Positions 1 to 19,142 of a stretch of DNA of 64,000 nt are shown piece by piece (the first letter of the stretch is position 1; each line of letters opens with the position of its first letter). The notes under the pieces were generated by a model. That model ran no database searches and had not been told where the DNA came from. It saw nothing but the letters and a program-made list of their open reading frames with translations. Source of the stretch: Pseudomonadota bacterium (lineage in GTDB: Bacteria; Pseudomonadota; Gammaproteobacteria; Steroidobacterales; Steroidobacteraceae); NCBI GenBank assembly GCA_037200975.1, contig JBBCGI010000001.1, positions 1,116,001 to 1,180,000 of the forward strand, in the 5' to 3' direction. A program made the position numbers and the translations under genes.

Positions 1-1439
1 TTTGTCTGAATTTCAGTTCTGATCGTCCGCTCCGTCGCAAGTTGGCGGTGAAGCTGAATTAGCTCCTTGACCTCCGGCTTCTGCAGCGCGGCAAGCTGAC
101 TCTTTGTGGTAGCAAGCAAACTTTCATACTGCGGAATGAGCTTTACCTTTTGTTCCGCCTTCTCAATTTCGCTTTGCAGGTGTAGCAGTTTCTCCCGCGC
201 CGCCTCTTCCGCCGCGATCGCTTCCGAGAGATCAACAAACCTATCCAGGTACTTCAGGAGGGCGAGCGGATCAGTTTGAGCATCATGGCTGATCTTTGCG
301 GCCTCACCTTGCCCGAAGCAAGCCACTTCGAACGAAGTCGGGCCAACTAAAGGGTCGTCGAGATTCTCAACCTGACCGTCTTTCATCCGTAATAGGGAGT
401 GGCGTTGCCCGGCCTGATCCTCCCAAAAGAGGTGGAGTTCATCCGGCCAGACCTCTGAATCAATCACCTTGCTATCGCTCTCACAAGCGCTTGCGATACA
501 GCGAACCGATTCGAATACAGTCGATTTTCCGGTCCCGCGCCCGCCGATGATGCAATTGAGATTTGGACTGAATTGCACGACCTGGCCCGACAGGAATCCA
601 CCATCGATGTGTACGCCGAGAATTCGGGGGACTGCCGCGGGCACGTGGTCTTCAATACGAACCCGCGCATCTGCATCCTCCAACGCGAGGCGAAGCGCGT
701 CGAAAGACGGTGCATCCATCTTGTAGCGCGTTACCCTGCGCTTGCTCGCAGCGTTGCGACCGAGAGCATCGAGCGTGTGGGCGTCAGAATTTAGGACACG
801 AGCCAAGAATTGCTTGGAACCTAGCTTGAGCTTGGCAATCCTTTTCCTCCCGATATTCGCACGCTGCTGATCGGGATCTCCATCGGCGTATGAGATTTGA
901 GAATTCGCGTGCTTCAGCTCGATTGCGAGCAGCGCAGGATGGCAAAGCACGTCTTCCTTGTGGGGGCTAGCGCCGGGATTCTCGGTCTCAAATCCGGAGG
1001 GCACATCTACATGGGCAAGGATTCCGAAACCACCTAAAGGCATGAGGAGATTGAGGCAGCCAAGTAGCGACTCCTGACACCGCGAGGTTGCGGTCCCTCG
1101 ATCAACGATAGTTACCTTTCCTCGAAAACTTCGAAGGGCCTCCAGCGAGGGCAGGTAGCAGAGCATGTGCCCCTGCGGTGTCGAAAGCTCAATTGCGGGA
1201 ATTACAGTTAACGAGGTGCCCTGTGCAGCGCGAAGCATGGCCTCGATGCTGTCAATCTCGTTGTGATCTGAGACGGCGATGATTGATAGCCCCTCTGAGA
1301 CCGCCGTCTGCACAATTGCTATCGGCGTCATCGCGTTATCGCGCACGTCATGCGATGCGCCAGACGAATGAATGTGCAGATCGGCGCGAAAGAATCGCGC
1401 TCCGGTGGAAACAGCTAGGACATCTTCGAGCGCCGACAT
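1..1439 (-). CDS. PHP-domain / P-loop ATPase, TrlF-like (partial, 3' end outside window)
   Basis: About 479 N-terminal residues are visible; the gene runs off the left edge. Residues 15-235 form a PHP phosphoesterase domain with all metal-ligand motifs: DLHIHS (20-25), SDHNE (57-61), an IPAIELS segment (80-86), GILAHVD (139-145) and NSDAHT (217-222). A Walker A motif GGRGTGKST follows at about 299-307, then an acidic and Lys-rich stretch (about 410-460) that looks like the start of an SMC/RecN-type coiled coil. This order is that of proteins named TrlF-family AAA-like ATPase. Start ATG at 1439 has AGGAA upstream. GC is about 50%, clearly below the chromosome, and many codons are A/T-ending, as expected for acquired DNA. 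The role is unknown to me; a nucleic-acid-linked defence function is only an inference from architecture and location in an integrative element. Confidence 0.85.
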   Translation of the reverse strand, partial: MSALEDVLAVSTGARFFRADLHIHSSGASHDVRDNAMTPIAIVQTAVSEGLSIIAVSDHNEIDSIEAMLRAAQGTSLTVIPAIELSTPQGHMLCYLPSLEALRSFRGKVTIVDRGTATSRCQESLLGCLNLLMPLGGFGILAHVDVPSGFETENPGASPHKEDVLCHPALLAIELKHANSQISYADGDPDQQRANIGRKRIAKLKLGSKQFLARVLNSDAHTLDALGRNAASKRRVTRYKMDAPSFDALRLALEDADARVRIEDHVPAAVPRILGVHIDGGFLSGQVVQFSPNLNCIIGGRGTGKSTVFESVRCIASACESDSKVIDSEVWPDELHLFWEDQAGQRHSLLRMKDGQVENLDDPLVGPTSFEVACFGQGEAAKISHDAQTDPLALLKYLDRFVDLSEAIAAEEAAREKLLHLQSEIEKAEQKVKLIPQYESLLATTKSQLAALQKPEVKELIQLHRQLATERTIRTEIQT

Positions 1440-1607
1440 GCAGAGAATTCCTATTTTTGTAGTTGGACGTAACGGCTTGGCCCGAGGCACTGATCTTGCT
1501 GCCCCGCAGCACGCACTGGCCGCCGCATCGGACCAACTACCTATGCACGGCGACCCTAGCAATGTAAATAGCGAGGGCTACTTTGCTAGGCCCAAGGCCA
1601 CCCAAGC

Positions 1608-2159
1608 CTAAGCATCCGCTCTCGAATGCCCCACGATCCAACTTCGAAGGTTCGCCTTGAGCAACGCTTTGGTGTTCTCGCGCAGCGCTTCGCAGATCTT
1701 GAGCATCGCCCGAAACTCCTCGCGCACCGAGCCAGGAAACCCGCCTCCCTCATTCGCGACCTTGGCAATCTGATTGATGTTCCGCCCAATGGCCGCCAGC
1801 TCGGCGATGCTGCGCTTGAGCGCGAGCAGCTCGTCCTTCGGCAAGGGAATGAGCGATCGCAGGTGAGCACGCACCAGGACGGAGACATAGGTCGCCGCCG
1901 GCATCGCTCGAGCCCCAGCTCGGTCGCGCAGCATGACCTGATCGCTGGGCTGCAGGCGAACAGTCAGTCGCGCCTGGCGAAGTCCTCCTTCGTCCCGCCT
2001 TGGCTCTGAGAGCACTTCATCGCCCACGCCACGGAGCATGACTCCGAGCATTTCCTGGAGGAGCGCGGATTCGGTCCGTCCTTCGCGCTGGGCAAGCGCG
2101 CGAAGCCGCAGCTTCGTCTCCTGAGTCACGCGCAAGTGAATGAACGCCGACGCCGTCAT
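1608..2159 (-). CDS. mobC: MobC-like mobilisation protein
   Basis: 183 aa. MobC proteins are relaxosome accessory factors that bind near oriT and help the relaxase nick DNA for conjugal mobilisation. Two ribbon-helix-helix-like stretches are visible (about 6-40 and 62-100), followed by the MobC signature around 119-135 containing IGRNINQIAK. The ATG at 2159 is divergent from the AlpA-like gene, leaving a 197-bp gap (2160-2356) where an oriT could lie, although no nick-site motif was recognised there. The usual partner relaxase gene is not present next to it: the next gene downstream on the same strand, after 168 bp, is the PHP-ATPase. Either the relaxase lies beyond the left edge or the element depends on one in trans. 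Confidence 0.85.
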   Translation of the reverse strand: MTASAFIHLRVTQETKLRLRALAQREGRTESALLQEMLGVMLRGVGDEVLSEPRRDEGGLRQARLTVRLQPSDQVMLRDRAGARAMPAATYVSVLVRAHLRSLIPLPKDELLALKRSIAELAAIGRNINQIAKVANEGGGFPGSVREEFRAMLKICEALRENTKALLKANLRSWIVGHSRADA

Positions 2160-2356
2160 GCGTGTGATCGTGAGACAAGAGCCGCCGCGAGGCTATCCTG
2201 CCTTTCACTCCAAATCCGGCCGAAACCTCACGCACACATGCGCCGGGCACTCACCCGTTTCTAACTAGACCTGCAAGGCCGCCGATCTCAGGCTTTAGCC
2301 AAAATTTCCCGCGATACCCCAACTGACGGTGATCTCACGGCGTGAAAACATGAGCC

Positions 2357-2752
2357 ATGAGTGATAGCTCGTCCGTTAACGGTTTGACCCACACGTCGAA
2401 AGCGCATGCCGCGTTGCAACCCCGCTTCATCCGCTTACGCGACGCACCCGCCTACCTCGGCATGGACAAGAACCGCTTCAACCGCGAAGTGCGCCCGAGC
2501 GTCCTCGCCCTCCGCATTGGCGTCCAAGGCATCGCCTTCGACCGCGTTGACCTCGATGCTTGGGCGGACGACTATAAGAGCCGCAACGGGTGCCGTGCGG
2601 CTCGCTCACTAAGGAGCAAATCATGGGAACCCAGAAAATGTCAGGCATCACCAAGCGCGGTGGAACCTGGCACATCGACAAGGTGTTCAGAGGAACGCGC
2701 ATACGCGAAAGCACTGGAACAGGCGAGATCGTCAAAGCCCAGGAACTGCTAG
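2357..2752 (+). CDS. AlpA-like / excisionase-type helix-turn-helix protein
   Basis: 131 aa. Residues about 22-75 contain the winged-helix pattern of AlpA/Xis-type proteins (FIRLRDAPAYLGMDKNRF at the start of the helix-turn-helix, then FDRVDLDAWADDY). Such proteins control excision and integrase expression in integrative elements. The last 40 or so codons overlap the integrase gene in another frame and are low-complexity, so the functional part is probably only the first 80 residues. The order alpA-like then int, oriented toward a tRNA gene, is typical of integrative islands. Confidence 0.65.
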   Translation: MSDSSSVNGLTHTSKAHAALQPRFIRLRDAPAYLGMDKNRFNREVRPSVLALRIGVQGIAFDRVDLDAWADDYKSRNGCRAARSLRSKSWEPRKCQASPSAVEPGTSTRCSEERAYAKALEQARSSKPRNC

Positions 2753-3825
2753 CCAAGCGGATTGAAGAGATCCGCGCGGCGCAGCTCTACGGCGTAAGAC
2801 CAGATCGCACGTTTCGCGCGGCAGCGACCAAGTTCCTGAACGAGAACCAGCACAAGAGGAGTATCGACGACGATGCGCTTCACTTGTCCCAACTCGATCC
2901 CTTCATCGGGAACCTGTTTCTCAAGCAAGTGCATCTGGACAGCCTGCAGCCGTTCATCGCCAGCCGGCGCGCGGATGGCGTCAAGACCACGACGATCAAC
3001 TTGGCGCTGGGCACGGTGAGGCGGATCTTGAATCTGGCAGCTTCCGAATGGCGGGACGAGCGCGGCATGACTTGGCTGGAACACGCAGCGAAGATTAAGC
3101 TGCTGCCGGTCAAGGACAAGCGAGCGCCCTATCCGCTGTCGCGCGACGAACAGGCGGCGCTCTTCCAGGAGCTTCCCGACTACCTCGCGCGGATGTCGCT
3201 CTTCAAGGTGAACACCGGCCTTCGCGAACAGGAAGTCTGCGGGTTGAAGTGGGCCGACGAGGTTGAGGTGCCGGAGCTCAACACATCGGTGTTCATAATC
3301 GAAGGCGACAAGGTGAAGAACAGCCAGGACCGCTTGGTCGTTCTCAACCGCGTCGCGCGTTCGGTCATCGGCAGTGTGCGGGGTCAGCATTCAGAGTTTG
3401 TCTTCGTTCGATTTCCGAAGCCGAAGAAGGCCGATGCCGGAAGCGCGCAAGTGCCAAAGAAAGGCCTTCCACTGACGAGCATGAACACGACCGCGTGGCA
3501 AAACGCGCGTGTTCGCGCCGCGAACAAGTGGAAGGAGCAAACCGGAAACGACGCGGCCGACGGCTTTCGCCGAGTGCGGGTCCACGATCTCAAGCACACC
3601 TTCGGCCGACGCCTCCGCGCGGCTGGCGTGTCGTTCGAGGATCGCCAGGACTTGCTCGGCCACAAGAGCAGCCGCATCACCACGCACTACTCCTCAGCCG
3701 AACTCACGAGCCTGATCGCGGCGGCAGAGAAGGTTTGCGATGAGAAGTCCCACAATTCCCCCGCAACCACCTGGCTGCGGAGAAGAGCGGGAAAGGAAAA
3801 CCGCGACAAGGTGTTGTCGCGGTAG
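2623..3825 (+). CDS. tyrosine-type site-specific integrase
   Basis: 400 aa, the normal size for phage/island integrases. The start is ATG 2623, preceded by a strong AAGGAG at 2611-2616; an in-frame ATG at 2590 lacks such a site. The N-terminal half (about 60-150) fits a SAM-like core-binding domain. Catalytic elements: Arg201 in NTGLREQEV, the box HDLKHTFGRR at 321-330 (Lys324 replaces the more common Arg), His347 in LLGHKS and the nucleophile Tyr356 in THYSS. The gene ends 7 bp before the 3' end of a tRNA-Arg gene, so that tRNA is the likely attachment target. It would catalyse integration and excision of the element to its left. Confidence 0.93.
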   Translation: MGTQKMSGITKRGGTWHIDKVFRGTRIRESTGTGEIVKAQELLAKRIEEIRAAQLYGVRPDRTFRAAATKFLNENQHKRSIDDDALHLSQLDPFIGNLFLKQVHLDSLQPFIASRRADGVKTTTINLALGTVRRILNLAASEWRDERGMTWLEHAAKIKLLPVKDKRAPYPLSRDEQAALFQELPDYLARMSLFKVNTGLREQEVCGLKWADEVEVPELNTSVFIIEGDKVKNSQDRLVVLNRVARSVIGSVRGQHSEFVFVRFPKPKKADAGSAQVPKKGLPLTSMNTTAWQNARVRAANKWKEQTGNDAADGFRRVRVHDLKHTFGRRLRAAGVSFEDRQDLLGHKSSRITTHYSSAELTSLIAAAEKVCDEKSHNSPATTWLRRRAGKENRDKVLSR

Positions 3826-3832
3826 AGGAAAA

Positions 3833-3856
3833 TGGCGCGCCCGGAGAGATTCGAAC
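3833..3856. other. probable att site (3' end of tRNA-Arg)
   Basis: The acceptor and T-arm 3' half of the tRNA lies directly beside the integrase stop codon, the arrangement of element-chromosome junctions where the identity segment is the tRNA 3' end. No second copy of the sequence starting TGGCGCGCCCGGAG was seen between 1 and 3800, so the other junction should lie left of the window. The exact crossover cannot be fixed without that copy. Confidence 0.45.
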
Positions 3857-3909
3857 TCCCGACCACCTGGTTCGTAGCCAGGTACTCTATCCAGCTGAGC
3901 TACGGGCGC
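3833..3909 (-). tRNA. tRNA-Arg (anticodon ACG)
   Basis: 77-nt cloverleaf on the minus strand. The 7-bp acceptor stem pairs GCGCCCG with CGGGCGC, the discriminator base is G, and the CCA end is encoded. The anticodon stem CCUGG/CCAGG carries loop CUACGAA with anticodon ACG. The T arm contains GUUCGAAUC. Its 3' end faces the integrase gene, so it is the probable chromosomal attachment site, reconstituted intact after integration. Confidence 0.95.
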
Positions 3910-4211
3910 GTGGCTCAAATTTAAGGGGCGCGATCATAGCAGAATGAATTTCTGCGTCGCGAACAAAGATAACCCCAAGCCGAACAAACACTTGGCGCAG
4001 GCGGCACTGCCCCGCCGCACCCCTTTTCATCCCCCCGCCCGCCGCTCCCCGAAAGGCCTCTCGAGAGGCTCAACGCCCGTAGCCGACTAAAAACCGCTCG
4101 CCACTCAACTGTGGGGATCGTCCGGCGCCAGAGTCGGACGTCACCTACGGGGCAAACCAAGGTGCGTTGCTACGATTCCGGCTCGTTTTTAATTCACCCA
4201 GGGGAAGTCCG
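3910..4211. other. intergenic region upstream of tRNA-Arg and stressosome operon
   Basis: 302 bp without a convincing gene. It holds the upstream regions of the tRNA (minus) and of rsbR (plus). A perfect 14-bp palindrome (GCCTCTCGAGAGGC) lies at 4056-4069 and could be an operator or a hairpin; no clear -35/-10 pair was recognised. The segment AGGGGA just before 4212 is the rsbR ribosome-binding site. Confidence 0.5.
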
Positions 4212-5057
4212 ATGGCGGACGCCACGATGTCAAACGTATTAAAGAAGAGTGGCAAACAGATCCAGGCCGACTGGGCCAGGGATCTCGCCGGCGCGCAATC
4301 GATCGGCAAAGGCCGGATCTCGGCGGGCGAGCTCGAAGCGCAATCCGCCGAGTTCATCAAACTACTGACGGTCGCGTCCGAACACGCGAAGTCCAGCGAC
4401 ATCACGGCGCCCGCGTTCAAGGACATCCGCGACTTCCTCGATGGCGTATCCCGCTCGCGTGTGGCGCAGGGCTTCTCGTCCGATGAAACCGCGTCGTTCA
4501 TCTTCTCGCTGAAGAAGCCGTTTTTCGCGGCGCTACGCACCGACGCGGGCAACGACGCCGACGCCCTCGCCGACCAGGTGTGGCGCGCCACCGAGTTGCT
4601 CGACGCGCTCGGCCTGCACACGGTCAAGGCGTACCAGAAGTCGCGCGAGGACGTCATCAACCGCCAGCAGCGCGAAATGCTCGAGCTATCTACTCCGGTG
4701 GTGAAGCTGTGGGATGGAATCCTGGCGCTGCCGATGATCGGCACGCTCGACTCCGCGCGCACCCAGGTGGTCATGGAAAACCTGCTGCAGAAGGTGGTCG
4801 AGACCGGCGCGCAGATCGCGATACTCGACATCACGGGTGTGCCGACCGTGGACACGCTGGTCGCGCAGCATCTGCTGAAGACGGTGACCGCGCTGCGCCT
4901 GATGGGCGCGGAATGCATCATCTCCGGCGTGCGGCCGCAGATCGCGCAGACCATCGTGCACCTCGGCGTCGACCTGCAGGGCGTCACGACCAAGGCAAAC
5001 CTGGCCGATGCCCTCGCCCTTGCGCTCAAGCGCACGGGCCAGACGCTCAAGGCCTGA
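4212..5057 (+). CDS. rsbR: RsbR-like stressosome scaffold/sensor protein
   Basis: 281 aa. RsbR proteins build the stressosome shell with RsbS; their variable N-terminal domain senses signals and the C-terminal STAS domain is phosphorylated by RsbT. The N-terminal 150 residues are helical and show no recognised haem or light-sensing motif. The STAS domain spans about 158-275 with AILDITGVPTVDT (203-215) and CIISGVRPQIAQT (235-247). The first conserved phosphorylatable Thr (T209, in DITG) is present; at the second site the usual Thr is Ser238. The start ATG 4212 follows AGGGGA. It leads the six-gene operon 4212-9610. Confidence 0.9.
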   Translation: MADATMSNVLKKSGKQIQADWARDLAGAQSIGKGRISAGELEAQSAEFIKLLTVASEHAKSSDITAPAFKDIRDFLDGVSRSRVAQGFSSDETASFIFSLKKPFFAALRTDAGNDADALADQVWRATELLDALGLHTVKAYQKSREDVINRQQREMLELSTPVVKLWDGILALPMIGTLDSARTQVVMENLLQKVVETGAQIAILDITGVPTVDTLVAQHLLKTVTALRLMGAECIISGVRPQIAQTIVHLGVDLQGVTTKANLADALALALKRTGQTLKA

Positions 5058-5065
5058 AGCATTCA

Positions 5066-5449
5066 ATGGAAAAAATCCCGATCCTGCGGATGGGCGACTT
5101 CCTCCTCGTCACCATCCAGATCGACATGCACGATCAGCTCGCACTGAAGCTGCAGGACGATCTTTCCAACGCCATCAACAAGAACGCCAGCAAGGGCGTG
5201 CTCATCGACATCTCGTCTCTCGAGATGGTGGACTCCTTCATCGGCCGCATGGTGTCCGACATTTCCGGCATGGGGAAGATCCTCGGCGCGGAAACCATCC
5301 TGGTCGGCATGCAGCCGGCGGTCGCCATCACGCTGGTCGAGCTCGGTCTCGCATTGCCAGGGGTCGCTACGGCGCTCAACGTCGAGCGCGGCATGGCGTT
5401 GCTGCGTCGAAAGATAGACGCGGACGGCGCCGATGACGGCCGTTACTGA
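5066..5449 (+). CDS. rsbS: RsbS-like stressosome STAS protein
   Basis: 127 aa, a single STAS domain as in Bacillus RsbS. RsbS holds the kinase RsbT in the stressosome until it is phosphorylated. The phospho-acceptor context MVDSFIG is present, with Ser57 corresponding to Ser59 of B. subtilis RsbS. The motif GMQPAVAITLVELG is the family hallmark. It starts 8 bp after rsbR and overlaps rsbT by 17 bp, indicating translational coupling and stoichiometric expression. Confidence 0.92.
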   Translation: MEKIPILRMGDFLLVTIQIDMHDQLALKLQDDLSNAINKNASKGVLIDISSLEMVDSFIGRMVSDISGMGKILGAETILVGMQPAVAITLVELGLALPGVATALNVERGMALLRRKIDADGADDGRY

Positions 5450-5837
5450 AGGAAAGGCGTCATTGCGCTCCGAGCACGACATCGTGCTCGCGCGCCAGCA
5501 GGTGCGCAGGCTCACGCAGGAGCTCAAGTTCTCGCTGGTCGACCAGACGAAGATGGTCACCGCCGCGAGCGAGCTGGCGCGCAATGCGTACACCTATGGC
5601 CGCGGCGGCGACATGCACTGGGCGATCCTGAACATCGAAGGTCGCACCGGTCTCAAGCTCCTGTTCGCCGATGACGGCCCGGGCATTGCCAACCTCGATC
5701 TCGCCATGACCGACGGCTGGACCTCGGGCAACGGTCTCGGCATGGGTCTCACCGGCTCGAAGCGGCTGGTCAACGAATTCGAGATCGAAAGCGCGATCGG
5801 CGTGGGCACGCGCGTGACGATCATCCGATGGAAGTAA
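5433..5837 (+). CDS. rsbT: RsbT-like serine/threonine switch kinase
   Basis: 134 aa, the usual size. It is a GHKL-fold kinase: N-box ASELARNAYTYG (about 49-60), G1 box DDGPGIANL, and GNGLGMGLTGSKRL as G2/lid. RsbT phosphorylates RsbR and RsbS, is released on stress and then activates a downstream partner. Here no RsbU gene follows, so the released target is probably encoded elsewhere or is one of the downstream signalling proteins of this operon (inference). It overlaps rsbS by 17 bp. Confidence 0.92.
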   Translation: MTAVTEGKASLRSEHDIVLARQQVRRLTQELKFSLVDQTKMVTAASELARNAYTYGRGGDMHWAILNIEGRTGLKLLFADDGPGIANLDLAMTDGWTSGNGLGMGLTGSKRLVNEFEIESAIGVGTRVTIIRWK

Positions 5838-5841
5838 TGCG

Positions 5842-6834
5842 ATGGACGCAATCGTGAAGGCGCCGCGCCGCGGCATTCAACAACGCCACGTCATCGACGA
5901 CTCCAGCAAGGTCGGCGAGGCGCGCCGCGCTGCGCAGACGCTCGCGAACTTCGAATTCAACGCCGACATCGCCGGCAAGGTCGCGATCGCCGCGACGGAG
6001 CTGGCCAACAACATGCTGCTGCATGCCGGCGGCGGCGAGCTGCTGGTGCAGACGCTGGGCGACGAGGACGACGTCACCGTCGAACTACTGGCAATCGATC
6101 GTGGCAAGGGCATGGCCAACGTCGCGCAGTGCATGCAGGATGGTTATTCGACTCATGGCACGTCGGGCACGGGGCTGGGCGCAATCCGGCGGCTGGCCAG
6201 CGAATTCGACCTGCACTCGATGCCGGGGGAAGGAACGCTGGTCATGGCGCGCTTCGGCGCAACGCTGGCGCTGCGTTACGGCGCGGTGAATGTCGCGCTC
6301 GAAGGCGAGATCGAGTGCGGCGATGCCTGGAGCCTTGCGCACGACGCCGACGGGATCGCCGTATTCGTGATCGACGGGCTGGGCCACGGTACCTTCGCCG
6401 CAGAAGCGGCGCGCGTGGGTGTCGGCGCGTTCGAATCCAATCCATTCGCGGCACCCCAGGAAATCCTGGCGCGCGCCAACGGACTCATGTCCAGGACTCG
6501 CGGTGGCGCGGCCGCGTGCGCGCGCGCGGTCGGCAACAAACTCTCGTACGCCGGCGTCGGCAACATCTCGGCGATGCTGGTTTCGCCGGGAAAATCACAG
6601 GGCCTCGTGTCGCACAACGGCACGCTCGGGCTCCATCAACGGCGCACCCAGCAATTCGAATACCAGCGCGACCCCGGCGCTTTTTTGGTCATGCACTCCG
6701 ACGGCATCTCGGCGCGCGGCGATCTCAGGAATCGGCCCGATGTTCTGGCCTGCCATCCAGCCATCATTGCCGCCGCGCTGTACCGCGACTATGGCCGCGG
6801 GCGCGACGACGCCACCGTCGTGGTCGTGAGCTGA
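5842..6834 (+). CDS. GHKL kinase domain fused to RsbX-like PP2C phosphatase
   Basis: 330 aa with two domains. Residues about 15-135 are an RsbT/RsbW-like ATPase (ATELANNMLLHAGGGE; DRGKGM; TSGTGLGAIRRL). Residues about 145-330 are a SpoIIE/RsbX-type PP2C phosphatase with VIDGLGHGTFA and C-terminal GRDDATVVVV. RsbX removes phosphates from RsbR/RsbS and resets the stressosome; the fused kinase domain supplies a second switch activity. It starts 4 bp after rsbT and shares its stop-codon A with the following ATG. Fused kinase-phosphatase proteins next to RsbRST are known from proteobacterial stressosome loci. Confidence 0.88.
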   Translation: MDAIVKAPRRGIQQRHVIDDSSKVGEARRAAQTLANFEFNADIAGKVAIAATELANNMLLHAGGGELLVQTLGDEDDVTVELLAIDRGKGMANVAQCMQDGYSTHGTSGTGLGAIRRLASEFDLHSMPGEGTLVMARFGATLALRYGAVNVALEGEIECGDAWSLAHDADGIAVFVIDGLGHGTFAAEAARVGVGAFESNPFAAPQEILARANGLMSRTRGGAAACARAVGNKLSYAGVGNISAMLVSPGKSQGLVSHNGTLGLHQRRTQQFEYQRDPGAFLVMHSDGISARGDLRNRPDVLACHPAIIAAALYRDYGRGRDDATVVVVS

Positions 6835-7694
6835 TGAGCACCGACCTGCAAGCACAGCTGGCCGCGCGCGACGCGGACATCGAGTTGCTGCGCAAGGAAC
6901 TGGAGGAAACCAACAAGGGTGTGGTCGCGCTGTACGCGGAGCTCGACGACAAGGCTACGCAGCTGCGCGACGCCACCGAGCTCAAGAGCCGGTTCCTCTC
7001 CTATATGAGTCACGAGTTCCGCACGCCGCTCACGTCGATGACGAGCATCACGGGCCTGCTGCTGTCCCGTATGGACGGGCCGTTGACGTCCGAGCAGGAA
7101 AAACAGCTGCAGTTCATTCGCGCCTCGACGCGCGAGCTCACCGACATGGTGGGCGACCTGCTCGATCTGGCAAAGGTCGAGGCCGGCCGCATCACGATCT
7201 CACCGGAATGGTTCGAGATGATGGACCTGTTCTCGGCATTGCGTGGCATGTTCAAGCCCATTGTTGCCAGCTCCGGGATTTCGCTGGTGTTCGACGAACC
7301 GCAGGGCGAGATCAAGCTCTACACGGACGACAAGAAGTTGTCGCAGATCCTGCGCAACTTCATTTCGAACGCGCTCAAGTTCACGCCGGTCGGCGAAGTG
7401 CGCGTCACCGCGACGCTGCTGCCGGACGAACGCGTCGAATTCGCGGTCACCGACACCGGCATCGGCATCGCGCCGGAACACGTTCCGAACCTCTTCATCG
7501 ACTTCGTTCAGCTCGACGTGCGGCTGCAGAAACGGCTGCGCGGCTCCGGGCTCGGATTGTCGCTGGCGCGTCAATTTGCGACGTTGCTGGGCGGCGAAGT
7601 TCATGCGGAAAGCGAGCTCGGCAAGGGTTCACGCTTTTCGCTGACGGTGCCGCTGCGCCTGCCGGGCGCGAGTGAATCGCAGGCGCGCGCATGA
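6834..7694 (+). CDS. soluble histidine kinase of the stressosome operon
   Basis: 286 aa. An N-terminal coiled coil (about 1-50, heptad-rich, many Glu/Leu/Lys) leads into a HisKA domain with SYMSHEFRTPLTS (phospho-acceptor His60). The HATPase domain covers about 165-275 with NFISNALKFT, DTGIGIAP and GSGLGLSLARQ. There is no membrane segment, PAS or other input domain, so input probably comes by contact with stressosome proteins. Start ATG overlaps the previous stop by one base and its end overlaps the hybrid kinase by 4 bp. Confidence 0.9.
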   Translation: MSTDLQAQLAARDADIELLRKELEETNKGVVALYAELDDKATQLRDATELKSRFLSYMSHEFRTPLTSMTSITGLLLSRMDGPLTSEQEKQLQFIRASTRELTDMVGDLLDLAKVEAGRITISPEWFEMMDLFSALRGMFKPIVASSGISLVFDEPQGEIKLYTDDKKLSQILRNFISNALKFTPVGEVRVTATLLPDERVEFAVTDTGIGIAPEHVPNLFIDFVQLDVRLQKRLRGSGLGLSLARQFATLLGGEVHAESELGKGSRFSLTVPLRLPGASESQARA

Positions 7695-18603: not shown

Positions 18604-19142
18604 CACGCTCTCCCGGTAGGAATTTTTTGTACGATCTCTTCGAGCTCGGTCCTGAGGTACGCCCCGAAACCCGGGTCGCACCAGATTCGATAGATAGGCC
18701 CGTCGTCGGCAACCTGGGGCAGCACCAGCACACCGACCCCGATCATCAGGGTCATGACCACGGTTTTGGGGCCAGGCAGCGCCGCGAAATTCACGTTGCA
18801 CACCTGGACGAGCACGTCGCTCGCGCGCGGGCCGCCGAGCACCAGCGCCGTGTCCTCGCGCAGCACGGGATACACACCGGGCAGATCCCCGGCGAGTTGC
18901 TCCAGCGCCGCGATGCCGGGCGCGGCACCGCTTTCCTCGAGGAAGAATTCCGTGTTGCCAAGCCGCCCGATCACGTTCGGCGAGTCGTCGCGATCGCTCG
19001 CGCGCAGCGGCGACCAGCTGTTCGGCCGCGCGGGCACGGTCAGGCCGAGTTGTTTGAGCGCTTCGGCAGCGCGCGGCCCCTTGATGCCGAAGCGTCGCAA
19101 CGCGGCCGCGTCGTCGAGCCATGCCATGCTGCGCCGGCTCAC
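18603..19142 (-). CDS. mgdD: N-methylglutamate dehydrogenase subunit D (SoxG-like)
   Basis: 179 aa, related to the gamma subunit of heterotetrameric sarcosine oxidase. A GTG at 19142 overlaps the mgdC stop (GTGA) and has GGAG 5 bp upstream; the ATG at 19127 has no ribosome-binding site, so GTG is preferred. Recognisable stretches include [22 protein letters not shown] and [19 protein letters not shown], and an aromatic C-terminal segment ([12 protein letters not shown]). It is a structural subunit of the NMG-oxidising complex. Confidence 0.82.

Follow-up and report, generated by a model that had tools for sequence, protein, structure and literature searches.

The window analysed here is a stretch of 64,000 nucleotides (G000:C1:1116001-1180000) from a Steroidobacteraceae genome (G000), which is a single contig of 4.65 Mb. 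Its first 3,909 nucleotides are the right end of an 18.4-kb element, here called E1, which lies in a tRNA-Arg(acg) gene at genome positions 1101521-1119877 and extends another 14.5 kb leftward beyond the window start. From the tRNA gene inwards, E1 carries genes for an integrase and an AlpA-like small protein, a lone mobC, and then its cargo (Table 1). A sequence-only reading of this region had listed an integrase abutting the 3' end of tRNA-Arg, an AlpA-like protein, MobC and the start of a PHP/P-loop gene, and all of these are present as described.

Table 1. Features of E1, in window positions unless marked as genome positions; cargo genes are listed from the left end of E1 rightward. E2 is the sister element described in the text. 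aa, amino acids; ORF, open reading frame; oriT, origin of transfer; att, attachment site.
Feature	Position	Strand	Basis or remark
tRNA-Arg (anticodon acg), integration target	3833-3909	-	ARAGORN
attR core, 45 bp of tRNA 3' half	3833-3877	.	repeat at E1 left end, 44/45 bases
Tyrosine recombinase (integrase), 400 aa	2623-3825	+	PF00589, E 8.6e-16
AlpA-like small protein, 131-aa ORF, candidate excisionase	2357-2752	+	overlaps integrase
Candidate oriT, core GCAGGATAG	2157-2223, core 2193-2201	-	core 42 bp upstream of mobC
mobC, 183 aa, NikA/MobC-type relaxosome accessory protein	1608-2159	-	PF05713 and NikA-like PF21983, both above cut-off
Junction past mobC stop, alignment to E2 mobC-relaxase operon fails	1586-1607	-	alignment
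TrlF-family PHP/AAA ATPase, N-terminal part	1-1439	-	whole gene G000:C1:1114737-1117439, 900 aa
Cargo: Gp49 (PF05973) and HTH_37 pair, left-most	genome 1101774-1102558		Pfam
Cargo: 395-, 336-, 326- and 237-aa proteins			no Pfam match
Cargo: 158-aa protein			no Pfam match
Cargo: 520-aa protein			HEPN_LA2681, E 3e-71
Cargo: 466- and 301-aa proteins			no Pfam match
Cargo: AlbA_2 protein, 469 aa			AlbA_2 domain residues 306-451
Cargo: 576-aa protein			no Pfam match; followed by the TrlF-family ATPase

Two related elements in tRNA genes

The span of E1 was set by the 45 bp of the tRNA 3' half, since they match, at 44 of 45 bases, a second copy of the tRNA 3' end at G000:C1:1101521-1101565. This is the left att copy that the sequence-only reading had named as the check on its proposal of an integrative element. 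In a DNA search of the own genome, window 3759-3877 also recurs at 1101447-1101565 with 87% identity, and the integrase gene ends 7 bp short of the tRNA 3' end. The integrase and the direct att repeats in tRNA-Arg make E1 a candidate integrative mobilizable element (IME). The lower GC content claimed for the region corresponds to a step that is real but modest, with values per 500 bases of 0.50-0.60 over most of E1 (0.59-0.63 at the mobC-integrase end) against 0.60-0.67 over the 12 kb that precede position 1100000.

A sister element, E2, lies in a tRNA-Thr gene of the same chromosome, and its length can be given as 11.5 kb because the 3' end of this tRNA gene is repeated exactly, over 45 bp, at 3190993-3191037. 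The mobC, AlpA-like and integrase genes of E1 recur at 3179.6-3181.9 kb with 79-81% DNA identity, corresponding to protein identities of 75% for mobC and 80% for the integrase. The opposite ends of the two elements have 108 bp in common, 86% identical (1101619-1101725 in E1; 18822-18929 of locus L057 in E2), located about 60 bp inside the distal att in both, and this stretch perhaps represents integrase arm sites. The exact repeats and homologous opposite end of E2 further support the view of E1 as an integrative element. In the DNA comparison, E1 outside the integrase module and the 108-bp end has no similarity to E2, and no E1 cargo gene was found in E2.

Integrases matching that of E1 at E<=1e-30 are present in 33 of 217 family genomes, the own genome included; in 20 of the 29 fetched loci with an integrase match, the gene ends no more than 100 bp from a tRNA 3' end. 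Box II of tyrosine recombinases is usually H-x-x-R; among 16 aligned integrases (E1 and 15 related ones) it is H-x-x-K in 14, with R in L114 and L115. The AlpA-like ORF of E1 has no Pfam match of its own. PF05930 is matched weakly by 5 of the 17 members of the AlpA-like family (best E 0.0016), and the profile of this family matched no solved structure.

The three genus mates contain neither a mobC match nor an integrase match at E<=1e-30. In the genus mate G001, the orthologous tRNA-Arg, with a right flank 81% identical over 1.6 kb, is followed by pieces of a related integrase (85% DNA identity over 222 bp); within the 2.1 kb visible there, E1 cargo has no match at E up to 0.01. The left chromosomal flank of E1 has no match in G001. 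The E1 genes were not seen at this place in relatives. A clean empty tRNA-Arg site, for which the sequence-only reading had suggested comparing related genomes, was not found: G001 holds integrase pieces, and in G003 the tRNA gene is cut by the contig end. On its left, E1 is preceded by about 1.4 kb that contain remains of an older, related integrase and a helix-turn-helix gene, and a further copy of about 40 bp, consisting of an integrase tail and the tRNA-Arg 3' end, is located 43 kb left of E1 (G000:C1:1058114-1058152). Because of these older pieces and the further att-like copy, the tRNA-Arg site seems to have been used by elements more than once. Between that copy and E1 the GC content is chromosomal-like, and the copy could be an older boundary or the result of a rearrangement.

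A lone mobC and the conserved site upstream of it

The E1 protein can be assigned to the MobC/NikA group by its matches to the PF05713 and PF21983 profiles and by the conserved GRN-N-NQ motif; the MobC family profile also finds PcfF (E 2.6e-4). In E2, a MOBP-type relaxase gene overlaps the end of mobC, with the relaxase ORF starting before the mobC stop (a search of solved structures with this relaxase gave a single match, E 0.52). E1 and E2 can be aligned up to about the mobC stop and no further; the E1 codon aligned with the relaxase ATG is ATT, and trlF comes next. No relaxase was detected in Pfam scans of the 16 E1 proteins, and a tblastn search of E1 for a relaxase remnant, using two relaxases, gave a best E of 0.57, which is noise. 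The genome has two PF03432 relaxase matches, and both sit in other elements, at 3182220 (E2) and 518049 (a third element). Both have a mobC and an oriT match as neighbours, the mobC at 518 kb being the third in the genome.

The sequence-only reading had called the mobC of E1 a lone one, and this was upheld: no relaxase was found in E1, while homologs of mobC usually have one downstream. Among 80 mobC loci kept from 127 relatives in the genome collection, a relaxase match lies directly downstream of mobC in 66, none was found in 10, and the contig ends in 4. For the 38 closest loci (L141-L178) the corresponding numbers are 31, 5 and 2, and the closest named loci include Steroidobacter, Peristeroidobacter and Povalibacter. 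In the five close relaxase-less loci (L159, L169, L171, L172 and L175), none of the ORFs of 80 aa or more on the stretch read matched the relaxase profile. L159 and L169 adjoin integrase genes, L175 adjoins one at tRNA-Arg (PF00589), and L172 is on a 7-kb contig. Five distant mobC loci without a relaxase match may carry relaxases too divergent to detect.

A conserved stretch precedes nearly every close mobC. In 43 mobC upstream regions its core, GCAGGATAG, is exact in 31 and has at most one mismatch in 41 (misses: L113 and L170), and it is placed exactly 42 bp before the mobC start in 29. Within L141-L178, 28 of the 29 exact copies of the core are upstream of mobC, in a search of 1,082,376 positions on both strands; chance alone would give about 4 exact copies in the whole of that search. 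Over the 42 bases between GGATAG and the mobC ATG, both included, E1 and E2 do not differ. The reverse complement of the core includes ATCCTGC, which we take to be the nic core of IncP-like MOBP systems. From its conservation and near-fixed distance from mobC, the E1 site is a candidate oriT. A conserved hairpin in this region was also considered and was rejected, as RNAalifold predicts no consensus pairs.

In the own genome, an oriT model built on this stretch has five matches at E<=0.01: those of E1, E2 and the 518-kb element, and one inverted pair. It has a match in 10 of the 59 genomes searched. The members of the inverted pair are 16 bp apart (G000:C1:1750484-1750543 on the plus and 1750560-1750612 on the minus strand; L238 9984-10112), and no mobC, relaxase, integrase or E1-cargo match was found in the 20 kb read around 1750484-1750612. 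In 3 of 29 related integrase loci, an oriT match (E<=1e-6) occurs without a mobC match: L106 (9797-9841), L107 (11299-11341) and L120 (178-235), the last being at a contig end. Further oriT matches, in G007 (C74, C12 and C148), G030:C1:661486, G005:C150, G029:C106 and G002:C14, have no mobC, relaxase or E1-type integrase match on the stretch read. The whole genomes of G007, G030, G029 and G002 contain no mobC match, and the G005:C150 site is 1.6 kb from a P4-type integrase at tRNA-Met.

Proposed mobilisation in trans and competing explanations

We consider it probable, at about 0.68, that E1 is a relaxase-less IME that is mobilised in trans by a co-resident relaxase and an incoming transfer apparatus. 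Excision as a circle would come from recombination between the 45-bp tRNA-Arg att sites by the integrase, for which the AlpA-like protein is the probable directionality factor. MobC, judging from its counterpart in the IncU plasmid RA3, would bind the oriT region that lies immediately upstream of mobC. A MOBP-type relaxase could then nick the conserved core in trans, its source being most likely E2 or the 518-kb element. The coupling protein and the secretion apparatus would come from a conjugative plasmid or integrative and conjugative element (ICE) entering the cell. Transfer would need such an incoming element because the genome matches neither the coupling-protein family PF02534 nor PF03135. 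In control genomes, the PF02534 search hits 5 of 14 and the PF03135 search 1 of 14, which makes PF03135 the weaker test. No mating-pair formation family is among the Pfam matches of the 16 E1 proteins; of the transfer-apparatus families, PF02534 and PF03135 were the two searched for in the genome. As for the contribution of MobC, transfer of the RA3 module is 1000-fold lower without it, according to the accessible text of PMC4175270. The ancestor of E1 probably resembled E2 and lost its relaxase gene, the place of which is now taken by cargo.

Several observations weigh against mobilisation in trans. A mobC match is present in only 3 of the 29 fetched integrase loci, so this integrase does not have mobC as a constant companion. 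The core of E2, the candidate helper, is GCCGGATAG and not GCAGGATAG (oriT-like site at L057 9309-9375), and it deviates from the family consensus more than that of E1. At E<=1 the oriT model finds nothing in the stretch of either an IncU (L273) or a Variovorax (L274) plasmid, and only the 7 bases GCAGGAT are common to the IncU region, 91 bp before its mobC. The pairwise dN/dS of 0.22 between the mobC genes of E1 and E2 (0.125 for the integrase) counts in favour of mobilisation in trans, but it averages both lineages. Three more points, namely the lack of a match to the two transfer-apparatus families tested, the one-base difference between the E1 att repeats and a slight excess of private changes in E1 MobC (10 of 13 non-independent comparisons, E2 having more in 3, never significant), are also what would be seen if E1 were a stranded, decaying island that lost its relaxase at a site where elements accrete, its mobC and oriT-like site being leftovers with no transfer role. 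The older integrase pieces and the further att-like remnant left of E1 fit such a history, as does the broken mobC of L175, one of the five close relaxase-less relatives. We regard this explanation as unlikely, since the integrase, AlpA-like and mobC ORFs of E1 are all open, the exact core is kept in its oriT-like site, 34 of 35 conserved MobC columns are kept (35 of 35 in E2), and the mobC ORF is intact in the other four of those relatives. In relative-rate comparisons of MobC with 13 outgroups, chi2 was at most 2.25 and none was significant. This pattern of constraint fits continued use of MobC, or a relaxase loss too recent to show.

A different role for the lone MobC could be that of a regulator, kept mainly to repress its own promoter and acting in trans on the nearly identical oriT and promoter region of E2, thereby setting the level of the helper relaxase. 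In RA3, MobC represses its own mobC-nic operon and thereby sets the relaxase level (PMC4175270, in the part available). The identity of E1 and E2 between GGATAG and the mobC ATG also speaks for this role. We find this role improbable as the main one, because the RA3 operator was not found by eye in the E1/E2 stretch and the RA3 protein has a direct role in transfer too. A palindromic operator near the mobC start was also tried and rejected: 9 of the 30 aligned rows have it, counting those with 6 or more of its 8 pairs, and E1 and E2 reach only 2. Regulation and transfer could also be combined, with E1 and E2 as hitcher and helper from one ancestor, MobC loading the helper relaxase onto the E1 oriT, whose core is nearer the consensus, and repressing the E2 mobC-relaxase operon in trans; E1 would then be a conjugative satellite that regulates its sibling, a speculative extension to which we give little credence. 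Phage-derived islands also carry a tyrosine integrase, an AlpA-like protein and a tRNA site, and E1 could on these grounds be a defective prophage or phage satellite that does not depend on conjugation. This is very hard to reconcile with MobC and the oriT-like site, which indicate conjugation; no structural or packaging family is among the Pfam matches of the 16 E1 proteins, and a pattern-based scan of viral contigs gave a single MobC relative.

Cargo, comparable systems and significance

The cargo protein next to mobC belongs to the TrlF family (NF045780) with 500.4 bits against a cut-off of 350, over residues 27-907 of a 914-aa reading, and its score of 24.5 bits with the Pfam PHP model is just below the cut-off of 26.4. 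It does not qualify as the anti-phage protein Ppl (NF042955, 151.5 bits against a cut-off of 1000); Ppl is the best of the 41 PADLOC families that it matches, the best stretch being residues 784-902, and among solved structures only ABC ATPases were matched. The genes for the AlbA_2 protein, the 576-aa protein and TrlF are co-directional, with one 72-bp gap and one overlap, and are probably an operon. TrlF-family matches above the cut-off are present in 6 of 217 family genomes, the own genome included. For the rare 576-aa protein the figures are 2 of 369 class genomes, again counting the own genome, and 6 plasmid records, in one of which it lies near SAVED and nucleotidyltransferase genes. In L153 and L155, TrlF-family genes lie downstream of the mobC-relaxase genes, next to DNA methylase and helicase genes. 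On plasmids, relatives of TrlF adjoin BREX genes in Polaromonas; in Klebsiella they are flanked by type I restriction subunits and accompanied by a protein with an RNA-binding domain.

The Photorhabdus TRL operon, which includes trlF, is induced on a temperature up-shift and leads to replication arrest, and mutations relieving this arrest mapped to trlG, which encodes an AlbA_2 protein (PMC7554251, accessible part). E1 likewise has a TrlF-family gene in a probable operon with an AlbA_2 gene. The AlbA_2 domain is C-terminal in the E1 protein (306-451) and N-terminal in TrlG, where it occurs with HATPase_c_4, and the rare 576-aa protein is encoded between the two genes in E1, unlike in the TrlF/TrlG locus. 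Our best guess from family membership and from the restriction-modification and BREX neighbours of relatives is that the E1 cargo has a role in defence or growth arrest; the TrlF operon, the HEPN and AlbA_2 proteins and a HigBA-like toxin-antitoxin pair would probably protect the host or the island. On the other side of the tRNA gene, the right flank (window ~4200-7694) has a stressosome-type look in translations read by eye, with STAS-like, anti-sigma-like kinase and phosphatase, and histidine kinase genes.

E1 can be placed beside several known types of mobile element. It is closest to E2 and the mobC-relaxase elements of related bacteria (iMOB type), as E2 has the same mobC/AlpA-like/integrase module, oriT-like site and homologous opposite end, and the same integration at a tRNA 3' end with 45-bp att repeats; the difference is the MOBP-type relaxase gene next to mobC, which E1 lacks. 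To our knowledge, the Vibrio island MGIVmi1 has no relaxase. Vibrio islands are mobilised by IncC plasmids or SXT/R391 ICEs, with MobI in MGIVmi1 and an oriT that mimics that of the helper in MGIVflInd1 (PMC8409611, in the part available). These islands are integrated, as E1 is, and helper-dependent, as E1 would be, with an oriT and with or without an auxiliary protein. They differ in their helper families and accessory protein; that of E1 is of the NikA/MobC type, and E1 also has a candidate oriT of the MOBP type and, in its own chromosome, a candidate donor of the relaxase. The mobC of the IncU plasmid, typed MOBP, is 35% identical to E1 MobC. In RA3, the studied IncU plasmid, MobC is of similar length and the oriT is next to mobC, the nick region being upstream of it (PMC4175270, accessible text). 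RA3 differs in being self-transmissible, with a relaxase gene preceded by mobC, and the IncU core is 91 bp before mobC, compared with 42 bp in E1.

Relaxase-less plasmids with nikA only (pCERC7, NTP16 and pU302S) have been described, and R64 mobilises NTP16 (PMC9282650, part available). They share with E1 one NikA/MobC-type accessory protein and an oriT, in E1 a candidate one, but are small and replicating with an IncI-type oriT, whereas E1 integrates. By its lack of a relaxase gene E1 also resembles the iOriT class, defined in the accessible part of PMC11389934 as integrated elements with an oriT and no relaxase, and as it retains an accessory protein gene it is intermediate between the iMOB type and a bare iOriT.

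Islands that depend on a helper and have an oriT and an accessory or auxiliary protein are therefore already known, from the MobI and oriT-mimic Vibrio islands and the nikA-only plasmids. E1 adds a version of the MOBP type that has MobC only, and whose candidate helper, a complete and homologous sister element, resides in the same chromosome. In a literature search by title and start of abstract, with most subscription journals outside it, no paper was found on mobC-only integrative elements of this bacterial family.

It has been proposed in a review that helper-dependent elements can arise from autonomous ones by gene loss (PMC11389934, in the part available). One chromosome here contains two candidate stages of this process, which have their integration module in common: E2 with oriT-like site, mobC and relaxase, and E1 with oriT-like site and mobC. 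L106 and L107 are related tRNA elements with an oriT-model match and no mobC match. A scan for relaxases only would miss islands such as E1, and the oriT-like motif at a near-fixed distance from mobC offers a way to find them. The informative part of the finding is the sibling pair in one chromosome, as E1 and E2 are a defined pair with which the reductive model can be tested.

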